Virus record (IMG/VR): IMGVR_UViG_3300018421_000282
Span: 1-20,666 of that record
Source: a virus
DNA length: 20,666 nt
Direction: 5' to 3' (one strand)
Both the position numbers and the translations under genes were made by a program. The notes beneath the pieces are model-generated. The model ran no database searches. It was not told the DNA's origin and worked only from the letters and a program-made list of their open reading frames with translations. Numbering within the stretch: position 1 is the stretch's first letter; each line of letters opens with the position of its first letter. Below, in pieces: positions 794-18,936 of the stretch.

Positions 794-801
794 TATTTAT
801 C
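794..801 (-). promoter_or_regulatory. Late-promoter-like octamer GATAAATA upstream of the gene starting at 775
   Basis: The minus strand reads GATAAATA here, one base from the T4 late consensus TATAAATA. It lies 18 bases before ATG 775, with AGGAG between, and overlaps the terminase stop. A second copy at 784-777 lies between the ribosome site and the start codon and is less likely to be functional. Confidence 0.5.
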
Positions 802-2393
802 TAAAGTAGTCCAATAGGCATCGGTTCATCGTACTCATCTCTATAGTCATCTTCGATTTCACCACTTTCTCCTAAACTGGTATTAACTACAGAAAATACA
901 TCATCTTCGAAGGTTGATATATAGTTGATCATTCGCATGTTTACTATCATAGACATAACCAAGTCGTCTGTTTCGCCTGGTTGTGCGGCAAAACTATTGC
1001 CTTTTGCCACAAAGTTTTTAAGTTCGCTGACAAATGCTTTACTGGTAATTTTAAGTTTGTCATTTTCTATATAACGTTTTAGTGCTATACATCCTTCAAT
1101 TTTTGTTTTACTACTGGTGTGAAATCCTTTACGTCCTTTACGCCCTTGAACTTTTACTGGATCATGCAGGAATGTGCCTGGAAAATTTTCTTCTCCTGTA
1201 TCTCTGATAACAACCAATGCCGCTTCTCCAATACTGTTATTTTCTACACTCCAATAAATTTCTCTTGCTTTGTAATTTTGAATTTCTTTAAGTATTTCCA
1301 ACATGGTCTTAACCTGACCTTCTATTGGAGTCTTATTGTGGCACCATTCGGCTACCTGCATCATACTGGGTAATTCTACAACCTGTATAGCAGAATTATC
1401 TCCTCCAGTACCTGTACTAGGATCTAAACTTACCACATACATATTTTCTGCACTTGGTCTTTTGTACCATCGAACTTGGCCCATCTTGTATAATGGCTCT
1501 CTGCTTTTCATATTTGCTAAATGCAGTGCATCTATTAATGTTTCATTGTATATGATGAATTCACATTCGTGTTCACGTTTAAATCTTTCTTCGCCTATTC
1601 TACCTTTTTCTTCTTCTGCCCATTGTTCTGTGCGTTCTGGGTGTTGATCCCAAGTGGCTAAATATCCTTTAAATCCGTTTATACCCACATCTTGGCTATT
1701 ACCATATTCATCAACAGTCTTAATTGCTTGATTCCAAATCATAGCAAACGTATCTTCGTCACTGTTTGGTGTGCTGGTTACAATACATTTACCGCCTGTA
1801 CTAAGTGTGGGCGAAAGTGAAGTCCAAAATTCTGCCGCAATCCTAGGAGGTACAAACGCAAACTCGTCTAAGTATACCAATGTAAGTGACATACCACGAC
1901 CAGTGTTTTCTGTTGTTGTACTTGCTACAATTCTACTGCCGTTGTCAAACGTTAGACTGGTTTTGTTGTATTCTGAAACACCTGCTCTGATATAATCCGG
2001 AATACTTTCATATGCATATCTAATACGTTGCATAATTTCTTGTGATCCAGCCGCTTTGTGAGCCGCAACTAATATTGTGCTGTCTGGTTTAAACATAGCA
2101 AACCATAACAAATAACCTGCGGCTACAGTGGTTTTACCCATCTGCCTGCCCAGCATGTTAATACTGTATCTGTATTTGTTATAATTTTCTACTAGTTCTT
2201 CTTGATAATCAAAAGGTTCAAAATTAATGCCGCCCTTTGTAGGGTGCTGTATTTTGACATACTTTTTCATAAAAAACATTGGACCAGTATTAGGATCACA
2301 ACAACGTTGAAATTCTTGCAACATTTCCGGTGTGTATTGAATTTTTGAAAAGGCTGGTTTGACCAGCTCAGTATTAACTGTTCCTTTTGGCAT
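801..2393 (-). CDS. 17: Terminase large subunit, gp17-like DNA-packaging ATPase/nuclease
   Basis: This is the packaging motor: it hydrolyses ATP to drive DNA through the portal into the prohead and cuts the concatemer. The N-terminal ATPase has a Walker A at residues 82-89 (GRQMGKTT), a Walker B at 171-178 (TLVYLDEF, D176/E177) and a coupling motif TSTPN at 206-210. The C-terminal RNase H-like nuclease shows D324 (SLDPS), E384 (VENN) and D476/D477 (GETDD), the expected acidic triad. At 530 residues it is shorter than T4 gp17 (610), with a reduced N-terminus. Unlike in T4, it does not directly follow gp16: a radical SAM gene and two unknown genes lie between. An AATAAATA octamer sits 6 bases upstream of the ATG and there is no clear Shine-Dalgarno. 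Identification is firm. Confidence 0.97.
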   Translation of the reverse strand: MPKGTVNTELVKPAFSKIQYTPEMLQEFQRCCDPNTGPMFFMKKYVKIQHPTKGGINFEPFDYQEELVENYNKYRYSINMLGRQMGKTTVAAGYLLWFAMFKPDSTILVAAHKAAGSQEIMQRIRYAYESIPDYIRAGVSEYNKTSLTFDNGSRIVASTTTENTGRGMSLTLVYLDEFAFVPPRIAAEFWTSLSPTLSTGGKCIVTSTPNSDEDTFAMIWNQAIKTVDEYGNSQDVGINGFKGYLATWDQHPERTEQWAEEEKGRIGEERFKREHECEFIIYNETLIDALHLANMKSREPLYKMGQVRWYKRPSAENMYVVSLDPSTGTGGDNSAIQVVELPSMMQVAEWCHNKTPIEGQVKTMLEILKEIQNYKAREIYWSVENNSIGEAALVVIRDTGEENFPGTFLHDPVKVQGRKGRKGFHTSSKTKIEGCIALKRYIENDKLKITSKAFVSELKNFVAKGNSFAAQPGETDDLVMSMIVNMRMINYISTFEDDVFSVVNTSLGESGEIEDDYRDEYDEPMPIGLL

Positions 2394-2413: not shown

Positions 2414-2827
2414 TTAGACGTCTTTGCTATTTTTTAAATAGTTTAGCAGTTTATCTCTGATAACATTTGTCAAAACTGCTTTATCAGTACTGTAAGAAAC
2501 GTCTTGAGGTTCGTCGCATCCACACTCAGAATCACATTCGCATTCTTCTTTGCCACAATCTGGGCAAACTTCTGCTTTTGGTTGATCTTGTTGTGGTTCT
2601 TGGGGGTCGTCTTGTTTAGGAAGAGTAATACCAGCAAGTTTTAATACATCATGTAAATCTGCCATACTGTCAGCATTAGCAGTTACAGTTACACTACCTT
2701 TATTTGTTTTTTTGGTTTTTGTATAACTGGCAGTTTCAGATTCTTGATTTTCCACTGCACCTGGCATAACTTCAGGACCAGCAAAATAACTTTCCATTAA
2801 TGCTATGTATTCTCTCATTTCTTTCAT
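2414..2827 (-). CDS. Unknown 137-residue protein with a cysteine-rich acidic cluster
   Basis: I do not recognise the family. The N-terminus (MKEMREYIALMES) is probably helical and resembles the start of the preceding gene (MRELKELINES). The middle has a polar stretch and then VTVTANADSMADLHDVLKLA at about 46-65, likely a strand plus helix. Residues 88-104 carry six cysteines (C88, C91, C96, C98, C102, C104) in a Glu/Asp-rich setting, opening with CPDC as in zinc ribbons. Zinc binding is an inference. The gene starts 1 base after the preceding gene stops, so the two are probably translated together. It precedes the large terminase, so a packaging or assembly role is possible but unproven. Confidence 0.8.
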   Translation of the reverse strand: MKEMREYIALMESYFAGPEVMPGAVENQESETASYTKTKKTNKGSVTVTANADSMADLHDVLKLAGITLPKQDDPQEPQQDQPKAEVCPDCGKEECECDSECGCDEPQDVSYSTDKAVLTNVIRDKLLNYLKNSKDV

Positions 2828-2828
2828 A

Positions 2829-3521
2829 TTATCTTCTTGAACTTTGGCTTATAACATCAACTTCTTTTGGTTCAGGTGATTTTCCGCCACCTGCTGTACC
2901 AGTAATTGTGTCATACATTGCTTTGAGATTGTCGCCCATTAGTTCATCTTTGGTTGGATAATTTTTAAAATAATCAGCACCTTTTTCTGCTTTAATTTTT
3001 TGTAGTTCTGCTAAGAATTTTTCATTGTATTCTTCACCAAACAATGCTTCTGAAAAATCTAATTCTTCATTTTGCATTTCGTAGTGTGCTTGTTCTTCAG
3101 CATTGCGATCTGCGTCTTCTTGGCTAACTAATCTGTCTGCATCGTTGGCTAATCTTTCTTCAGCCATTTCACTTTCTAATTTTCTTGGATCTTTAACACT
3201 GTAACAAATCACTCTTTCGTGATCTAAACCTAAATTAACTGCAACAAATACTTCAAGAATTCTTTCATTAACTGGATACTTCAATACAACATCAGTACTG
3301 CATACTTCGCTGGTAAATTTAGCACCTTTTAATCTTTGAAATTCTACTGGATTTTCTTGAATTGGTAATCTTTTCCAAGGTGTAGCACTTACCAAATTGT
3401 ATTTGGCTAAGATGCTTTCTAACTTAGAAAGATCATCTGCTGAACAATCTCTGGCTAATTTAATTCTATAACCATATTCCTTTTTAAATGATTCGTTAAT
3501 AAGTTCTTTTAGTTCTCTCAT
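2829..3521 (-). CDS. Unknown 230-residue protein upstream of the terminase
   Basis: I do not recognise this soluble protein. The first 120 residues look like a compact alpha/beta domain (RIKLARDCSADDLSKLESIL, then strands around VFVAVNLGLDHERVICYSV). Residues 125-165 are strongly acidic and probably helical (AEERLANDADRLVSQEDADR). The C-terminal part (about 165-215) looks helical and ends in a flexible Gly/Ser/Lys tail. A GGAG ribosome site lies about 13 bases upstream of the ATG and a TGATAAATA late-promoter motif lies about 25 bases upstream, so it probably starts its own late transcript covering the 137-residue protein and gp17. A virion or assembly function is possible from this context only. 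Confidence 0.82.
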   Translation of the reverse strand: MRELKELINESFKKEYGYRIKLARDCSADDLSKLESILAKYNLVSATPWKRLPIQENPVEFQRLKGAKFTSEVCSTDVVLKYPVNERILEVFVAVNLGLDHERVICYSVKDPRKLESEMAEERLANDADRLVSQEDADRNAEEQAHYEMQNEELDFSEALFGEEYNEKFLAELQKIKAEKGADYFKNYPTKDELMGDNLKAMYDTITGTAGGGKSPEPKEVDVISQSSRR

Positions 3522-3545: not shown

Positions 3546-3553
3546 TATTTATC
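3546..3553 (-). promoter_or_regulatory. Late-promoter-like octamer GATAAATA before the 230-residue gene
   Basis: The minus strand reads TTTTTGATAAATAAG in the 49-base gap after the radical SAM gene. The octamer is about 25 bases upstream of ATG 3521, with a GGAG ribosome site between, which is a sensible promoter-leader layout. The T-run plus GATAAATA also occurs upstream of the tail sheath gene. Confidence 0.55.
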
Positions 3554-3570
3554 AAAAATACAAATATTTT

Positions 3571-5274
3571 TTAAGATTGTTCTGTAATATTCAAATAAGA
3601 CTCTGTTCGATTTTCGTCATGCAATAATTCGCTGTCAAATAATGTGTGTTTTTCTATGCTCATAAGATTTTCAAAATATGTTTTTCTGCGTTGCATTTCT
3701 ATATCTGTAGTATCTTTAAACGACACCTGTTTACTCTTTACTTTATCAAACATCAAATCTATATCTTCATCTACACCATCCATACCCCAAACTTGATACT
3801 GTGCATAATAGTTTAGTTTATAATGATTTTTGGTAAGGTTTTGATTGTGGTAAAATCTTAATCTATAACTCCAAACATCCTCATTTACAACTCCGTGCTT
3901 GTTCATATAATTTACTAAACCTTTTTCCGAAGTAGTTTCCATAATAAGAGGATCTGACCAAGGTAAAATTTTAAGTTGCCATTGTTCATGATTAATAGAT
4001 AAATCACTTTTAGCAACATCATGATCTGGGTTGTTTGGATCTTCCAAATACAACGGACTTACTAGAAAACTGTCTAAAGGATTTTTGTCACTACCTAAAA
4101 ATTGTAGTGCTTTTTTTATGTCTTGTTTAGTGTCGCTGGGCAATCCTAATATAAAACCAGAATGTACTCCCACATGTTTCCATGTTGTTTGTTTAAGTTC
4201 TTTAATAAAATCCATAATAATCCATGGATTTAATCCTTTGCCTATATCTTTTGCACTTTCTGGTGTAAGAGTTTCTATTCCACAATGAGCAAATTCTAAA
4301 CCGCAATCTACTAAAAGTTGTGCTTGTTTTTTAAGATATACCAAATCTATTCTTATAAATGCCGCAAGTTTTAATTTAAAAGGTAACTCCTTGGCTATTT
4401 TAGCAATTTCTTCTAGTCTATCATTGTCGTCATTAAATGTATCATCTACAATCCAATATTTTGTTATGCCAAATTTTTCATAATTTCGAATCAACTCTTC
4501 TTTGATAAATTCTCTACCACGTACATATGTTCCAGGTTCTTTGCCTATATATTGAAAACTACAAAAACTACATTTAAATATACAACCTCTAGCAATCTCT
4601 AAAGGCACAACTTCGTTTTTATCCAACATATCTTCATCACACCAGAACATAGTAGACTTGCTGATGTCATGTATTTTTGTTTTATCTGTATAATACTGTT
4701 GTAAAGGCTTATGATCTTTAATGTCCTGTAATATCTGTGGTACTGTAATTTCTCCATAACCTTGCACAATTAAGTCTATGTTGGGATTTTCCAAAAAAGA
4801 TTTATTGACTAATCCACCGCCCACCATAATTTTTACATTAGGATTTATACTTTTAAGATGTGCTGTTATCCTATTTTCTTCTTCTATTGTTTCAACAGGA
4901 AGATAGTGATACATTTCCACATTGGTAGAACCTATATAAGTGAACGTCTTTTTCTTGGTAAGTTGTTTGGTCATAAACGTTGAGCTAGTACCAATTGCTA
5001 ACGTTTCTTCACCTACAAATTTATCGAATATTTTTTTAAATTCTTGTTCATTGAAGTATGCACAAAAATCTATTACTTGAACTGTGAATCCAGCCAGCCT
5101 ACAATAGTGTGCTAACTTGTATGCACCTATAACTCTGTTGCTGGTAGAGATATAATTATCCCAAAATGCTCTATTTGGATCAATATAATCTTGTTCACCT
5201 TTTAGATATTTTAAATTAAAATTTTCACTCATACGTCCGGTGAAAATTAAAAAATTTACAGGTGTTTTTTCCAT
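3571..5274 (-). CDS. B12-binding-type radical SAM enzyme, paralog 1
   Basis: An iron-sulfur enzyme expected to cleave S-adenosylmethionine to a radical; the substrate is unknown. Residues about 45-185 have the Rossmann-type layout of B12-binding domains, with VQVIDF near 65-70, NPNVKIMVGGG at 144-154 and QGYGEITVPQ at 171-180. The canonical DxHxxG cobalt ligand is not evident, as in many class B enzymes. The radical SAM core begins at ARGCIFKCSFCSF, with C231, C235 and C238 forming the intact CX3CX2C motif, followed by a TIM-barrel region (WIVDDTFNDD, CGIETLTPE, FILGLPSDT). The C-terminal 130 residues are unassigned. It shares colinear motifs with the enzyme at 16349-18208, so the two are paralogs. 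The start codon overlaps the gp16 stop by one base (TAATG), indicating coupled translation. It separates gp16 from gp17. Confidence 0.9.
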   Translation of the reverse strand: MEKTPVNFLIFTGRMSENFNLKYLKGEQDYIDPNRAFWDNYISTSNRVIGAYKLAHYCRLAGFTVQVIDFCAYFNEQEFKKIFDKFVGEETLAIGTSSTFMTKQLTKKKTFTYIGSTNVEMYHYLPVETIEEENRITAHLKSINPNVKIMVGGGLVNKSFLENPNIDLIVQGYGEITVPQILQDIKDHKPLQQYYTDKTKIHDISKSTMFWCDEDMLDKNEVVPLEIARGCIFKCSFCSFQYIGKEPGTYVRGREFIKEELIRNYEKFGITKYWIVDDTFNDDNDRLEEIAKIAKELPFKLKLAAFIRIDLVYLKKQAQLLVDCGLEFAHCGIETLTPESAKDIGKGLNPWIIMDFIKELKQTTWKHVGVHSGFILGLPSDTKQDIKKALQFLGSDKNPLDSFLVSPLYLEDPNNPDHDVAKSDLSINHEQWQLKILPWSDPLIMETTSEKGLVNYMNKHGVVNEDVWSYRLRFYHNQNLTKNHYKLNYYAQYQVWGMDGVDEDIDLMFDKVKSKQVSFKDTTDIEMQRRKTYFENLMSIEKHTLFDSELLHDENRTESYLNITEQS

Positions 5275-5750
5275 TAAGAATCTTTTTGATTGATAATTTT
5301 TAGTAATTCGTTTCTATCTAATACTGTGCCAGATGATCCGGAGCCTTCATAATCTCCTGAATTGCTGTCTAATCTAGCCTTTTTGATCATCATATCAATC
5401 TGTTTTAGTTTTGTGTTTATTTTACTGTCTTTTGCTTCAAGTGCTGTTTTTAACATTTTAGCGGCACTGTCAAATATACTGCCTGCATCTCTGTCGCTAA
5501 CATTCATACCTAAGTTCATCAATTGCTGATAACTATCAACTGCTTGTTGTGCAATATCGTCCATTTCAAAATCGTGCTGATCCAATCCTTTAACATTTTG
5601 TAAAGCATTGTCTATCTTTTCTGCAATACTTAATGCTTGTTGAATGTCTGCAACATCAACGGATTCTATTTCTTGAGGTGGTATAGGATCTTGTTCTTGC
5701 ACTTCTTCTAATGGTGGTAAATTGAATTCTTCTTCCAGTTTCTTAGTCAT
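5274..5750 (-). CDS. 16: Terminase small subunit, gp16-like
   Basis: This is probably the regulatory packaging subunit that recognises concatemeric DNA and stimulates the large terminase. At 158 residues it is close to T4 gp16 (164). It has an acidic, proline-rich N-terminal tail (about 1-30) followed by mainly helical sequence. The stretch from DIAQQAVDSYQQLMNLGMN through a degenerate RDAGSIFDSAAKMLKTALEA to KLKQIDMMIKKARLD matches the central helical oligomerisation region of this family. The C-terminus is Gly/Ser-rich and then helical. The gene lies 8 bases after gp4 and is coupled (TAATG) to the radical SAM gene downstream. The large terminase is about 2.9 kb further on. The call rests on pattern, length and context. 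Confidence 0.8.
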   Translation of the reverse strand: MTKKLEEEFNLPPLEEVQEQDPIPPQEIESVDVADIQQALSIAEKIDNALQNVKGLDQHDFEMDDIAQQAVDSYQQLMNLGMNVSDRDAGSIFDSAAKMLKTALEAKDSKINTKLKQIDMMIKKARLDSNSGDYEGSGSSGTVLDRNELLKIINQKDS

Positions 5751-12140: not shown

Positions 12141-12890
12141 TTAAAAAATATTATCTGTATTTTGAGCAATGTTGTTTTCTAGTATTTTTTGTAAATCATC
12201 AAATAAAATATCTGGATGAAAACAAGCCGATCCTACTATTCTGTCAAACTCAGATTGTGAATTATCTATTTTATGAAATTTATTAACTCTTACTAATGTT
12301 GGTATCTCCATACCATGATAGTCGTCTTCTATAGTAATCAAAGATTCATCATTTACAACTTCGTGCCCATATCTTATTTTTATACCTTTTCCTGTATCAT
12401 AATTTTCATCTGTTTGTTCTAATAAAGGATAATGATCAGTACATATTTTATCTATTGTTGAATTATTTTTAGCCCAAACTATTTTACTTTTAGACAAGTC
12501 TTTGTCTGTTAACTTATAATTTATAGCAACATTACGTCTAATGCGATTGTTTAAAATAAAATTTTTATATTCAGACGGTGCTAAATCTAAAAATCGTGTT
12601 CCTTCGTTGTGCCATTTGTATTCTCCAAATGCTGGTGTATGCAATATAAAAATATTATACACAGGTATATTAAATACTTTAAAAAATTCTTTTTGAAGTT
12701 TTTTTAATACACCTTCTTTCCAAACATATATATTTCCATCTTGGTGAGGGAACATTAAAAAATTATTTGTTTGATCTCTATTAAATTTTTCTACATCACC
12801 ATCAAATTTATCATAACTGATTTCAAATATTTCTTTTGCTAATGTAAAAGGTTTTATTAAATTTTTGTTTTGTATTTTAAAATAATTCAT
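12141..12890 (-). CDS. Putative iron/2-oxoglutarate-type oxygenase, paralog B of a pair
   Basis: No family is recognised with certainty. It aligns by eye with the upstream neighbour. Numbered from a TTG at 12899, both have a WHxEG motif (here KWHNEG, H97/E99), then an Arg-Asn block with alternating strands (RRNVAINYKL), then a late strand with H209 and R220 (LVRVNKFHKIDNSQSEFDR). An HxE...H...R order on a strand-rich protein fits a double-stranded beta-helix oxygenase, where His, Glu and His hold Fe(II) and Arg binds 2-oxoglutarate. Function is inference. I chose ATG 12890 (249 residues), which overlaps the upstream gene by 14 bases; the TTG would add three residues. Both genes look AT-richer than the structural genes, which hints at later acquisition. 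Confidence 0.72.
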   Translation of the reverse strand: MNYFKIQNKNLIKPFTLAKEIFEISYDKFDGDVEKFNRDQTNNFLMFPHQDGNIYVWKEGVLKKLQKEFFKVFNIPVYNIFILHTPAFGEYKWHNEGTRFLDLAPSEYKNFILNNRIRRNVAINYKLTDKDLSKSKIVWAKNNSTIDKICTDHYPLLEQTDENYDTGKGIKIRYGHEVVNDESLITIEDDYHGMEIPTLVRVNKFHKIDNSQSEFDRIVGSACFHPDILFDDLQKILENNIAQNTDNIF

Positions 12891-13683
12891 TGTTTTCAAA
12901 AAGTTGTACTATGTCTTTGTATGTATACTTACTGGAATTACCCATAAACCTAAGACTTATTCTATTTGTATTATCTGTTAAAACTTTATGATAAGAAGAA
13001 AGGTTTATAATATATGGACAATGATATCCTTTTTTAATACCTGTAATTTCTATATGTTCTCCCCACACATTTTCATCAAGAATAGAATCTATACTGGATG
13101 ACACTCGTAATGTTTTTTCAATATTAGTGACTCCTGTTACTTTATCTTCTGTGTTGCTAAGTTTGTACAATAAATCCATTTCTTCTCTAATAAGTTTTTC
13201 GCTTGGTTTACCAAACCACACTTCACTATTATTAGGATCACCATATAAAGGAAAATTTACAGCATAATTTACTCTACCATCTAACATGTTTATAACATCT
13301 CTATTATAAAAATCTGCATTGCCTTCTCTGTGCCATACACTAGATTTATGAAATTTAATTAAAGTAATAGGTAAAAATTTTACACCTATACTAGGTGTCC
13401 AGATGTCATCCATAATATTAATTTTAAAATTATCATTAAAGAAATCTTTTAAGATATATTGAAATTTTTTACTTGTAATGTAGCCCATTGTGCTACTAGG
13501 TCTTGTATCTCGAGAGTTTGTTCTCAATAAAGATTCTTCTACTCCTTCCCACAAGATATTTTCAGTTTGTGTATTTTGTATTAGTTGTTCTTTGCTGTTA
13601 GCAATTTCATAATCTTGATCAGTAAAAATTTCTGTATGATCAAATGGTAAAGTTAAATGTGGTAAATCTATAAAAGGTTTCAC
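12877..13683 (-). CDS. Putative iron/2-oxoglutarate-type oxygenase, paralog A of a pair
   Basis: A 268-residue protein without a sure family match. It has SSVWHREGNAD at about 114-124 (H118, E120), then RVNYAVNFPLYGDPNNSEVW at 137-156, then PYIINLSSYHKVLTDNTNRI at 223-242 (H232, R241). The order HxE, central Arg-Asn strand, distal His and Arg is what Fe(II)/2-oxoglutarate oxygenases with a jelly-roll core show. HxE instead of HxD is a known variant. A cofactor-free cupin is also possible. The start must be GTG 13683, immediately after the gp13 stop, because the next methionine is at residue 66. The downstream paralog overlaps its 3' end, so both are translated from the gp13 transcript. Confidence 0.72.
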   Translation of the reverse strand: MKPFIDLPHLTLPFDHTEIFTDQDYEIANSKEQLIQNTQTENILWEGVEESLLRTNSRDTRPSSTMGYITSKKFQYILKDFFNDNFKINIMDDIWTPSIGVKFLPITLIKFHKSSVWHREGNADFYNRDVINMLDGRVNYAVNFPLYGDPNNSEVWFGKPSEKLIREEMDLLYKLSNTEDKVTGVTNIEKTLRVSSSIDSILDENVWGEHIEITGIKKGYHCPYIINLSSYHKVLTDNTNRISLRFMGNSSKYTYKDIVQLFENNELF

Positions 13684-15918: not shown

Positions 15919-16392
15919 TTAATCTAATAGTTTGGCTGTTAAACCGATGGTTGCTGATGCACACTTTAGTTGATTTTTAGTTACCACACATTCGTAAAAC
16001 ACATGATTGCCTCTTTTTTTAATTAAAGTAGCATGATATACCAAAGTATCGCCTGGAAATACTGGATTTCTAAACTTACACTTATCCACTGTGGTAACAA
16101 ACGTAACATAATCTTCATGATTGACTTTTCCTACTTGTTGTTCAGCAAGTTTCAGTGCGTGATACCCGGCACATTGATTCATACCTTCTATGAGATATAC
16201 TCCGGGCCAAATTTTCACATGTGGGAAGTGTCCTTCCAATACTGGATGATCTGATTGTACAACATAAACAGACTCTACTGATGTATCATCTATATATTGT
16301 ACATCACCTAACAGTTTAATTGGTTCTTGATGTGGGAGTTCCATACAGTTATATATTTCTACACTGATGTTTCTTGTCAAAAGAAAGGACAT
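15919..16392 (-). CDS. FabZ-like hot-dog dehydratase
   Basis: It resembles 3-hydroxyacyl-ACP dehydratase FabZ, which removes water from 3-hydroxyacyl chains bound to acyl carrier protein in fatty acid synthesis. The FabZ signature is present: DHPVLEGHFPHVKIWPGVYL at 48-67, then IEGMNQCAG. His55 and Glu69 match the catalytic pair of E. coli FabZ (His54, Glu68) with the same 14-residue spacing. Further motifs are VDKCKFRNPVFPGDTLVYHA and KKRGNHVFYECVV. At 157 residues it has the usual length, and LPHQEP near 19-24 matches the family's LPHRYP. The gene overlaps the 3' end of the radical SAM gene by 44 bases; a shorter start at 16344 (MELPHQ) would avoid this. It may act on a lipid or polyketide-like acyl chain; thioesterase activity is also possible. 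Confidence 0.88.
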   Translation of the reverse strand: MSFLLTRNISVEIYNCMELPHQEPIKLLGDVQYIDDTSVESVYVVQSDHPVLEGHFPHVKIWPGVYLIEGMNQCAGYHALKLAEQQVGKVNHEDYVTFVTTVDKCKFRNPVFPGDTLVYHATLIKKRGNHVFYECVVTKNQLKCASATIGLTAKLLD

Positions 16393-18208
16393 TATAAAAA
16401 TATTGATTTATTTTTGCTGTTTCTCTGTAATTGAAATTAATAGGTTTAAATTCGTCATATTCTGTAGGAGGTATAAACAATCTAGGATCATGATAAGGGA
16501 AACCATTTGCATGAAATATTGCGGCAGTTCGTTGCTTGTGTATATTTCTTAGTCTTAGATGTAGACTGGTGGCATATTTCTTTACATCATAAAAAGTTAA
16601 ACCATGACTATTTTTCCACACAACATTTTTCATTTTATATGCAAACTCTAGAAACTGTTCTGGGATAGGATTTCCATGCATGTCTACTGTTGTTTCCTCA
16701 TATCCCCATTCTTGCCAGGATTGGCTAAACTCACTTTCGCTTAACAATGTGAAAGATGTAGCATTTTCTCCGATATCTCTGATATGTAGAGGTTGTATAG
16801 TAAGTGCATCTATCTGATTTTTATCCGAACTTAAAAAATTAGACATGTATTTAAGTGTGTCTTTAGTATCGCTAGGCAATCCTGCAATAATACCAGTCAT
16901 AAACTTCACATCTTTCATATATGTCTGCTTCATTTCTCTATGAAACTCAAATTGTAGTTCTGGATTTAATCCTTTACCTATATCTTTTGCACATTCTGGA
17001 TCAACAGTTTCGATACCTAGTACCAACTGTCGTGCACCACTATCGGCTAACAGTTTTGCTTGTGGTATAGGTTGGTTTCTATTCATATAAACCAAATCCC
17101 AACGAATATATGCATTCCAACTCAGTTTAAAAGGCAATCGTTGACTCATTTCATACCATGCTACAACTTTATCATGGTCATCATTAAATGTATCATCTGT
17201 TAGCCAATAGTGTGTTGTGCCATGTGTATGATAATTGTATAAGATTTCATCTTCAATGGCTTCTATGCCTCTTAAAGATTCACCTTTTTGCTTACCGTTT
17301 AATGGAAAACTACAAAATCTACATTTAAAAATACAACCTCTACCAACTTCTAATGGAAGAATTTCTCCTTTTAACACATGATCTTCTGGTAGCCATTCCA
17401 TTGTGGAATTTTGTATGTCTAATTCACTTTTAGCATCCATTAGTGTGTATAAGCCTTTAGAATTTACTGGATATTGTGCTGACTCGTTGCTGTTATCTTT
17501 GAGTTGTCGTAATAATTTAGGTACTGTTACGTCTCCATAGCCCAAATTGATATAATCGATCATGCCTTCTTGTTCATTAGGCACACCTTGATTAGGAGTC
17601 GTAAATGCTCCACCCAAAATAAACTTTATATTAGGATTTATATCTAAGATAAACTGTTTTAGTTGTCTATCTGCAGGTCCTCCCAAAGAAAAAAATCTAT
17701 TCCACTGACTTTCCTCGATAACTTCTTTGCGTTCTTCTATGGTATAATCTTCATAAACATCAAAATTGCTACAACTAGGTCGAATATATGTGCTATCATA
17801 AAACCTAAATGTGTTTCCTACTCCGATCAATAATGTTTTTTCGCCTACAAATTTTTCTAAAACTTTTTCTAGTGATTTTCTGCATAGATTTCCCATGTGA
17901 TCTATGACTTGAACTGTAAATCCATGCTGTCTTGCTTCATGGGCTACTTTGTATGCTCCCATTGCTCTTATACTGGCTCGATTAACCAAATCAAAATCGC
18001 CTTCTTTCCATAGACTGGTTAAATCATCATGTTCTCGCTGAATTTGATCTCGTGTTTGTGTTCCAAACTGAGGAGAGTCTGTGAAAATAAGAAAATTTAC
18101 AGGAGTTTTTTCAATTGGAAAATTTTTAAAAGGATTTATTAAATCTTTTTGATGGTGAAACTGTTGGTACACCGAATGATCGAATTTTTCAAATGCATTT
18201 TCATCCAT
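16349..18208 (-). CDS. B12-binding-type radical SAM enzyme, paralog 2
   Basis: A 619-residue iron-sulfur radical enzyme with unknown substrate. It has a 33-residue N-terminal extension absent from paralog 1, then EKTPVNFLIFT shared with it. The B12-binding-like region spans about 80-235 (VQVIDHMGNL at 99-108, NPNIKFILGGA at 191-201, INLGYGDVTVPKLL at 220-233). The radical SAM motif GRGCIFKCRFCSF has C292, C296 and C299 (CX3CX2C), followed by WLTDDTFNDDHD, GIETVDPECAKDIGKGLNPE and IIAGLPSDTKD. Cobalamin-dependent methylases and rearranging enzymes share this layout. It starts 11 bases after the reductase gene and overlaps the FabZ-like gene, so reductase, radical enzyme and dehydratase appear to be one translational unit. 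An AATAAATA octamer precedes the ATG. Confidence 0.9.
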   Translation of the reverse strand: MDENAFEKFDHSVYQQFHHQKDLINPFKNFPIEKTPVNFLIFTDSPQFGTQTRDQIQREHDDLTSLWKEGDFDLVNRASIRAMGAYKVAHEARQHGFTVQVIDHMGNLCRKSLEKVLEKFVGEKTLLIGVGNTFRFYDSTYIRPSCSNFDVYEDYTIEERKEVIEESQWNRFFSLGGPADRQLKQFILDINPNIKFILGGAFTTPNQGVPNEQEGMIDYINLGYGDVTVPKLLRQLKDNSNESAQYPVNSKGLYTLMDAKSELDIQNSTMEWLPEDHVLKGEILPLEVGRGCIFKCRFCSFPLNGKQKGESLRGIEAIEDEILYNYHTHGTTHYWLTDDTFNDDHDKVVAWYEMSQRLPFKLSWNAYIRWDLVYMNRNQPIPQAKLLADSGARQLVLGIETVDPECAKDIGKGLNPELQFEFHREMKQTYMKDVKFMTGIIAGLPSDTKDTLKYMSNFLSSDKNQIDALTIQPLHIRDIGENATSFTLLSESEFSQSWQEWGYEETTVDMHGNPIPEQFLEFAYKMKNVVWKNSHGLTFYDVKKYATSLHLRLRNIHKQRTAAIFHANGFPYHDPRLFIPPTEYDEFKPINFNYRETAKINQYFYNVLSFDKKHQCRNI

Positions 18209-18213
18209 ATGAG

Positions 18214-18221
18214 TATTTATT
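18214..18221 (-). promoter_or_regulatory. Late-promoter-like octamer AATAAATA before radical SAM paralog 2
   Basis: The minus strand reads GATTAATAAATACTCATATG; the octamer contains the reductase stop codon and ends 5 bases before the ATG. It matches the NATAAATA pattern but is very close to the start. Confidence 0.3.
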
Positions 18222-18936
18222 AATCTACAAATGCACGTTCTAACACAAACTCGCCGGCTTCGCCTAGATTACCTTCTTGCCAACCCAACATTTCAAAAAA
18301 TTCTCTGCATTCATAATTCATTTCAGGGCCACCGCACACCATAATTCTGTCTGTTTGTTTGTTAAAACCATTTTCTGTGAAATTATCAATGTGTTGCCAG
18401 AATCTTCCTTTGCGGACATAGTCTTGTTGCGTACATGTATCATAATATTCTAATGGAAATGTTTCACACAGTTCATTAATGGTATCACAGTATGCATGTT
18501 CGGTGTGTGTTCGTGTGGTATGAACTAAAATCACATTTTCAAACTTATCGTATGTGTCTGGGTCTCTGATTATGCTCATAAATGGAGCAAGTCCTGTGCC
18601 AGTTGATAACAAAAATAAATTTTTTGCAGGTGTCAAGTTATCAATCAACAGTGTGCCTGTACACTTTGGCATAACAATTACTTCGTCACCAACTTTTAAA
18701 TGCTGTAGACGACTTGTAAGAGGTCCGTCGGGTACTTTGATGCTGAGAAACTCTAAATGATCTTCGTAGTTTGCACTGGCAATACTGTATGCTCTCAATA
18801 ATGGCTTGTCGTCTACCATAAGTCCTATCATGGCAAACTCGCCATTGCGAAATCTAAAAGTTTTTGATCTTGTAGTTTTAAAACTGAAGGTCTTATCTGT
18901 CCAATGGTGTACCCATGTCACTGTTTCTGTGTTCAA
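18220..18936 (-). CDS. Ferredoxin/flavodoxin-NADP+ reductase (Fpr-type)
   Basis: An FAD enzyme that moves electrons between NADPH and ferredoxin or flavodoxin. At 238 residues it matches bacterial Fpr (248 in E. coli). The FAD site RAYSIAS is at 48-54, VPDGPLTSRLQHLKVGDEV at 68-86 is typical, the NADP site STGTGLAPFMS is at 111-121, VCGGPEM occurs near 194, and the C-terminus ends in an aromatic-containing FVLERAFVD like other Fpr proteins. The start is TTG 18936, since no in-frame ATG exists upstream; it overlaps the preceding stop by four bases (TTGA). It directly precedes radical SAM paralog 2, which needs a low-potential electron, so it likely serves that enzyme through a host or phage ferredoxin or flavodoxin (inference). 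Confidence 0.93.
   Translation of the reverse strand: MNTETVTWVHHWTDKTFSFKTTRSKTFRFRNGEFAMIGLMVDDKPLLRAYSIASANYEDHLEFLSIKVPDGPLTSRLQHLKVGDEVIVMPKCTGTLLIDNLTPAKNLFLLSTGTGLAPFMSIIRDPDTYDKFENVILVHTTRTHTEHAYCDTINELCETFPLEYYDTCTQQDYVRKGRFWQHIDNFTENGFNKQTDRIMVCGGPEMNYECREFFEMLGWQEGNLGEAGEFVLERAFVD

Follow-up and report, generated by a model that had tools for sequence, protein, structure and literature searches.

An apparent accessory paralog, from a B12-type radical SAM family found almost solely in viruses, near the terminase genes of a T4-like virus

Why does a marine-type T4-like virus carry a second B12-type radical SAM gene beside its putative small terminase gene? The question is raised by a 20,666-base virus record (from here on, the window), whose T4-like structural genes lie on the minus strand in the order gp16-A-o230-o137-gp17. 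Gene A is the copy in question, and its paralog, gene B, lies further along the window between an FNR and a FabZ-like gene (Table 1). An earlier note on this DNA derived both copies from one duplication, assigned A late expression at the time of packaging, and called the phage genome streamlined. The last description is without basis, as the nearest annotated isolates have genomes of about 288 kb.

Table 1. Position and assignment of the genes and the promoter-like element discussed here, in window coordinates.
Feature	Position	Strand	Assignment and remarks
Gene A	3571..5274	-	Radical SAM protein of the B12 type (class B); 567 aa; CxxxCxxC motif spanning residues 231-238
Gene B	16349..18208	-	Paralog of A, 619 aa, presumed core copy in the FNR-rSAM-FabZ operon
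FNR	18220..18936	-	Ferredoxin/flavodoxin-NADP reductase-like (PF00175/PF00970); always directly upstream of B-type copies
FabZ-like gene	15919..16344	-	3-hydroxyacyl-ACP dehydratase-like (PF07977, 1.9e-15)
gp16	5274..5750	-	Putative small terminase, by position alone; phrog_16202, function unknown; stop overlaps the start of A (TAATG)
o230	2829..3521	-	Structural-protein-like (phrog_14802, virion structural protein, 3.1e-5); conserved in the gp16-gp17 interval across the lineage
o137	2414..2827	-	The other conserved gene of the gp16-gp17 interval; found at the junctions of relatives
gp17	801..2393	-	Large terminase (PF03237, 1.2e-20, and PF17289); 60% identity to Wroclawvirus TerL
GATAAATA	3546..3553	-	T4-late-promoter-like element, 25 bp upstream of o230 and hence downstream of A

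A and B are homologous and both look functional. The two proteins align at 35% identity over 608 columns (BLASTP, E 2e-99), which at the sequence level is far beyond chance, and the strings quoted in the earlier note (EKTPVNFLIFT, FTVQVID, GRGCIFKC or ARGCIFKC, DDTFNDD, AKDIGKGLNP and GLPSDTK) all occur in both, in the same order. Its view that both copies are intact, with their iron-sulfur motifs, also holds: the open reading frames are intact at the positions in Table 1, the motifs are invariant and selection is purifying. The radical SAM domain PF04055 lies above the cut-off in both proteins (A 6.9e-18, B 5.5e-15). The B12-binding domain PF02310 is above its cut-off of 32.1 bits in A (33.6 bits, 3.9e-8) and below it in B (16.4 bits). 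Residues C231, C235, C238, E226, R229, R308, E334 and K346 are invariant in 58 of 58 aligned members, and no loss of catalytic residues was seen in close relatives. The A junction recurs at 99-100% protein identity in three contigs from other metagenome samples (L001, L002 and L003), and is therefore not the chimera of a single contig.

Codon comparisons indicate that both A and B are under purifying selection. In close pairs of A, dN/dS is 0.10-0.15; the distant pair of the window and L061 gives 0.30, with dS near saturation. For B the values are 0.09-0.18 in three of four pairs, the fourth being a very close pair with 0.43 at a dS of 0.046, and between tandem copies the ratio is 0.11. These values bear on the idea that A is a passenger copy without current use, either a recent insertion or a decaying duplicate. 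Its patchy distribution over two separate terL clades would fit such a copy, but the A lineage is long-lived (46-51% identity among its orthologs), is constrained in close pairs and retains its motifs, which makes a passenger quite improbable.

The predicted structure of A (AlphaFold, pLDDT 86.1, pTM 0.89) places it in a well-populated enzyme class. Membership in the radical SAM superfamily is indicated by PF04055, by the CxxxCxxC motif in 58 of 58 aligned members and by the barrel in the model. Class B, or class 1 Cbl, is defined by an N-terminal Rossmann domain of the B12 type ahead of the barrel, which is found in A by PF02310 and in B under the cut-off. Against the PDB, the model matches AprD4 (Z 19.5), CysS (19.3), OxsB (18.9), TsrM (18.9) and TokK (16.1) over about 385-420 residues. 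Like A, these proteins (Z 15-19.5) combine the Rossmann domain, a barrel with CxxxCxxC and a C-terminal helical region, though at only 12-17% identity, and the OxsB/TsrM/CysS-type match is full-length, covering residues 4-520 of the predicted structure. AprD4 is not known to use cobalamin, and MiaB and RimO follow closely in fold score. Because these three are on a par with the cobalamin enzymes, the fold indicates the class but neither the reaction nor the use of cobalamin. According to their PDB titles, the TokK and CysS structures contain pantetheinylated ligands. In 54 of 58 aligned members, F or W occupies position 100, which lies in the loop that follows strand 3, where TokK has Trp76 (PMC13331322); for cobalamin binding, this analogy is no more than suggestive.

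Family databases do not narrow the function further. The best NCBIfam match of A is TIGR04072 (rSAM_ladder_B12, lipid biosynthesis; 7.4e-22, 77.6 bits, with B at 59.2), and that of B is TIGR04479 (PhpK-type P-methyltransferase; 3.6e-17, 61.9 bits, with A at 65.6). With cut-offs of 360 and 600, respectively, A and B are members of neither. An enzyme name from NCBIfam was rejected, as the matches spread across many subfamilies, all far under the cut-offs. In PHROGs, A weakly matches a family of unknown function and B has no match. The divergence between the two copies is greatest in the C-terminal region, where 5 of 109 columns are identical in all A and B rows, against 53 of 201 in the barrel, and this fits different substrates.

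Judging from profile searches, A and B belong to a large family of B12-type radical SAM proteins that is essentially viral in the data searched. A profile built from 13 members splits off 117 family members at 180 bits or more, while all other proteins score at most 124 bits. One scan of IMG/VR gave 151 stretches with relatives, 80 of which were kept, and a terminase ATPase domain was present in 6 of the 21 distant records searched. A single scan of bacterial and archaeal genomes yielded only five family-level contigs (L175-L179), one of which, L176, has neighbours in common with phage contigs. No relative of A or B was found among the 50,697 records of the phage collection. Two single viral records, those with L171 (289 kb) and L251 (236 kb), contain 16 and 17 radical SAM domain matches, often in tight runs, for example at 146-166 kb in the L251 record.

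An abundance of radical SAM genes in a marine T4-like genome has already been reported (PMC5332604), and so have radical SAM cassettes in pelagimyophages (PMC7029224). The former describes 12 such genes in the 183-kb genome TARA_ERS488813_N000010, as well as Fe-S assembly genes (Nishimura et al. 2017, PMC5332604); the B12-type family, its paralog history and the FNR-FabZ operon are not singled out in that passage. In freshwater pelagimyophages, fabF and a desaturase were noted (PMC7029224). The literature searched, with subscription papers mostly outside it, held no description of the present family of viral B12-type proteins, its amplification within a lineage, or its link to FabZ, carrier proteins and desaturases.

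Phylogenetic analysis traces A and B to a common ancestor within the viruses. In trees of 98 rows and then, with more care, of 34 rows, A, B and a third type of copy, C, form one clade (support 100/100) that occurs in this T4-like lineage only, and no bacterial sequence falls inside it in the 98-row tree. In the 34-row tree, support is 100/99 for A (represented by the window, L034, L061 and L112), 99/97 for B and 100/100 for C. A groups with C (97/95), probably its nearer relative of the two; a grouping of A with B is not rejected (AU p 0.09). The C copies adjoin B-type copies or share the FNR-FabZ operon (L026, L239, L240 and L241), and a contig can hold up to three copies: A, B and C in G003, and three in tandem (G001/G008; L127/L128). 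These varied arrangements imply that the copy number rises and falls in the FNR-FabZ operon, and A looks like the same stock as the B and C copies, now placed elsewhere. Hence, the duplication proposed by the earlier note did take place, and within the lineage, yet a single event does not account for repeated amplification and for the grouping of A with C. The two copies do not fall into distant bacterial clades, as independent acquisition from different bacteria would have it. A few bacterial assemblies (L175-L179) do contain members of the wider family, but A, B and C stand as one clade against all other members, with no bacterial sequence within, and we regard separate acquisition as the least probable of the explanations considered.

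The A tree and the terL tree differ slightly. The window groups with L061/L112 in the former (bootstrap 88, SH-aLRT 71) and with L034 in the latter (82). This weak conflict could reflect an exchange of A between phages.

The position of A turned out to be less intimate with packaging than it first appears. A does lie in the interval between the presumed small and the large terminase genes, but not directly between them, since o230 and o137 intervene. The name gp16 is given by position alone. The putative gp16 has no PDB match, and a 15-member alignment did not match T4 gp16 (hhalign, probability 0.1%); small terminases diverge fast, and the position fits. In comparison, gp17 is a clear TerL by Pfam. 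Nor does A break a usual gp16-gp17 pairing, because throughout the lineage, and also in Pseudomonas phage MIJ3, two other genes already stand between them. Together with PA5oct, MIJ3 represents the nearest annotated isolates (Wroclawvirus/Arenbergviridae; TerL 60%, gp13 53%). It shares the order gp16-like, structural, hypothetical, TerL, with the structural gene in the place of o230; unlike the window, it has no radical SAM gene at this junction.

At the gp16-o230 junction, A is missing from most relatives. The junction is either empty (50-185 bp), or holds A and a gene of about 210 aa on the opposite strand, or that gene alone; in the window it holds A alone. From these gene orders, A is an accessory gene that was inserted downstream of the putative gp16, ahead of o230. 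The phages carrying A belong to two separate terL clades, the window with L033/L034/L037 and L061 with L112. The opposite-strand gene is conserved (60-87% identity to the L061 copy), has no match in Pfam, NCBIfam or the phage collection, and accompanies A in this slot in L034, L037, L061 and L112. Its positions include L061:7832-8464, L034:8210-8842, L062:2317-2982 and L070:8200-8832 (minus strand). A small RNA or tRNA was considered for the gap of about 690 bp in relatives and none was found; the gap is this opposite-strand open reading frame.

As proposed, A appears to be translationally coupled to the upstream gene through the TAATG overlap. No obvious ribosome-binding site precedes its start in the window; in relatives, GGGGA or GGAG lies a few bases ahead of the ATG of A. 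The element GATAAATA occurs at 8 sites in the window versus 4.0 expected, a number reached in one of 100 shuffles, and is also found before o230 in L034, L061 and L062. The site nearest downstream of A serves o230, not A. Late expression of A would be plausible, and A is probably transcribed together with the structural genes upstream of it.

A possible role of A in packaging would be to modify the terminase, the procapsid or the DNA. Such a role would explain the place between gp16 and o230, and both the position and the TAATG coupling speak for it. However, A is absent from this junction in most relatives, the slot also takes an unrelated gene on the opposite strand, and the paralogs sit in a metabolic operon. 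The link to packaging is one of position only, and we consider a packaging role very improbable. A packaging-linked function was rejected as the default, with the slot empty or otherwise filled in most relatives. A minimal lesson is that a radical SAM gene beside gp16 should not be taken as a sign of a packaging function.

The surroundings of B are more informative. The FNR-rSAM-FabZ operon is the same in all relatives in which the region is covered, and FNR and FabZ bracket the B/C arrays in the T4-like lineage wherever both sides are covered. The best NCBIfam match of FNR is PRK10926, ferredoxin--NADP(+) reductase (3.9e-36, under the cut-off). The open reading frame call of the FabZ-like gene (to 16392) is over-extended; the likely start is 16344, just past the stop of B, and the proteins of relatives have 140 aa and start with MELPH. 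The gene carries the FabA-like Pfam domain (PF07977) and matches NCBIfam FabZ at 6.8e-25, under the equivalog cut-offs (87.6 versus 113 and 80.7 versus 155 bits). FabZ is the sole acyl gene in the lineage: no carrier protein, desaturase or ketoacyl synthase was detected in the T4-like relatives. Furthermore, neither a Fer2 (2Fe-2S) ferredoxin nor an A-type Fe-S carrier was found in the T4-like records, which are fragments. The region directly upstream of the operon (window 19203-20667) holds tRNA genes for Gly, Ala, Asp and Val, four in all, among small open reading frames, and tRNAs occur there in relatives too.

More distant phages extend the acyl connection. In two viral contigs (L245:9830-13862 and L244:9950-13404), genes for ketoacyl synthase, acyl carrier protein and FabZ, in L245 also for AcpS, come after the radical SAM gene, an arrangement that reads as a near-complete phage-encoded acyl-carrier cassette. 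Fatty-acid desaturases are present in 15 of 41 records, and 35 of the 46 desaturases lie within 12 kb of a family member. When the desaturase set was rotated along each record, 13.1 were expected and none of 20,000 rotations scored as high, a test that does not remove a general clustering of phage metabolic genes. In addition, carrier proteins are found near family members in several distant phage records. Among the cellular members, L175 (a Bacteroidetes MAG) and L179 (Endobugula) lie in NRPS clusters with PP-binding domains. The bracketing by FNR and FabZ, the acyl genes of distant phages, and the NRPS neighbours together with the fold relatives solved with pantetheinylated ligands, all point to acyl substrates bound to a carrier protein or to pantetheine. 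The clusters in L175 (3-11458) and L179 (800-9528) also include condensation and adenylation domains and a second radical SAM protein.

We therefore have common descent, intact motifs, purifying selection, an accessory distribution and a full-length class 1 Cbl-type fold match as computational results. The best explanation for them, to which we would give an even chance, is that A belongs, as an intact accessory paralog, to a virus-specific family that modifies carrier- or pantetheine-bound acyl substrates. B would be the core copy in its operon, in a family amplified within the T4-like lineage, and a duplicate nearest to the C copies, which still lie beside B in relatives, would have moved into the gp16-o230 slot. 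The [4Fe-4S] cluster and SAM would generate a 5'-deoxyadenosyl radical, with reducing power passing from host NADPH through FNR, a possible electron source, and a host flavodoxin or ferredoxin. The radical would then modify an acyl substrate tethered to a carrier protein or pantetheine, with cobalamin as the methyl carrier if it is bound, and FabZ would work on the same acyl pool. A and B would act on different substrates or positions, or on successive ones. A packaging role would not be necessary, and A would probably help to remodel host acyl chains.

The main competitor, unlikely but to be taken seriously, is a non-acyl target, such as a building block of cell-surface glycan or LPS, a small cofactor or a peptide, with FabZ and FNR as loosely linked helpers. 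Class B radical SAM enzymes are very diverse, the NCBIfam matches fall over many subfamilies far under their cut-offs, and AprD4, an aminoglycoside enzyme, ties for the top fold match. Moreover, a host-recognition island of pelagimyophages acquires radical SAM cassettes (PMC7029224). What argues against such targets is the constant presence of FabZ as a neighbour, along with the ketoacyl synthase, carrier protein, AcpS and desaturases of distant relatives. A heteromeric enzyme with A and B as its subunits is improbable, as is regulation of B by A. Records with A also have B where both regions are covered (the window, the L114 record G005, and G003), but B occurs without A in L017/L047 and L023/L067, while an obligate pair would stay together, and A retains the full catalytic set.

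A broader version of the acyl reading is possible, and we hold it only tentatively. The virus-specific family might run a phage-encoded remodelling of carrier-bound acyl chains. In jumbo phages it would draw on a ketoacyl synthase, carrier protein, FabZ, AcpS and desaturases encoded by the phage itself; in T4-like phages it would rely on FNR and FabZ and use host acyl-ACP. The serial copies A, B and C would modify successive positions, leading to a lipid or acyl product that the host does not make. If true, many uncultured viruses would direct cobalamin-type radical chemistry at acyl chains as a form of host-lipid control of which the literature searched gave no description, and infection would be tied to the supply of cobalamin, SAM and iron. 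The paralog arrays would offer a natural set for mapping sequence to substrate in an enzyme class that is hard to predict.

Another protein family of 250-280 aa is present between gp13 and a kinase-like gene in the window (12141-13683) and in L012, L026 and L240, with one to four copies per phage. It has no Pfam match, and its sequence holds hints of metal-binding His/Asp motifs, so that it is possibly oxygenase-like.
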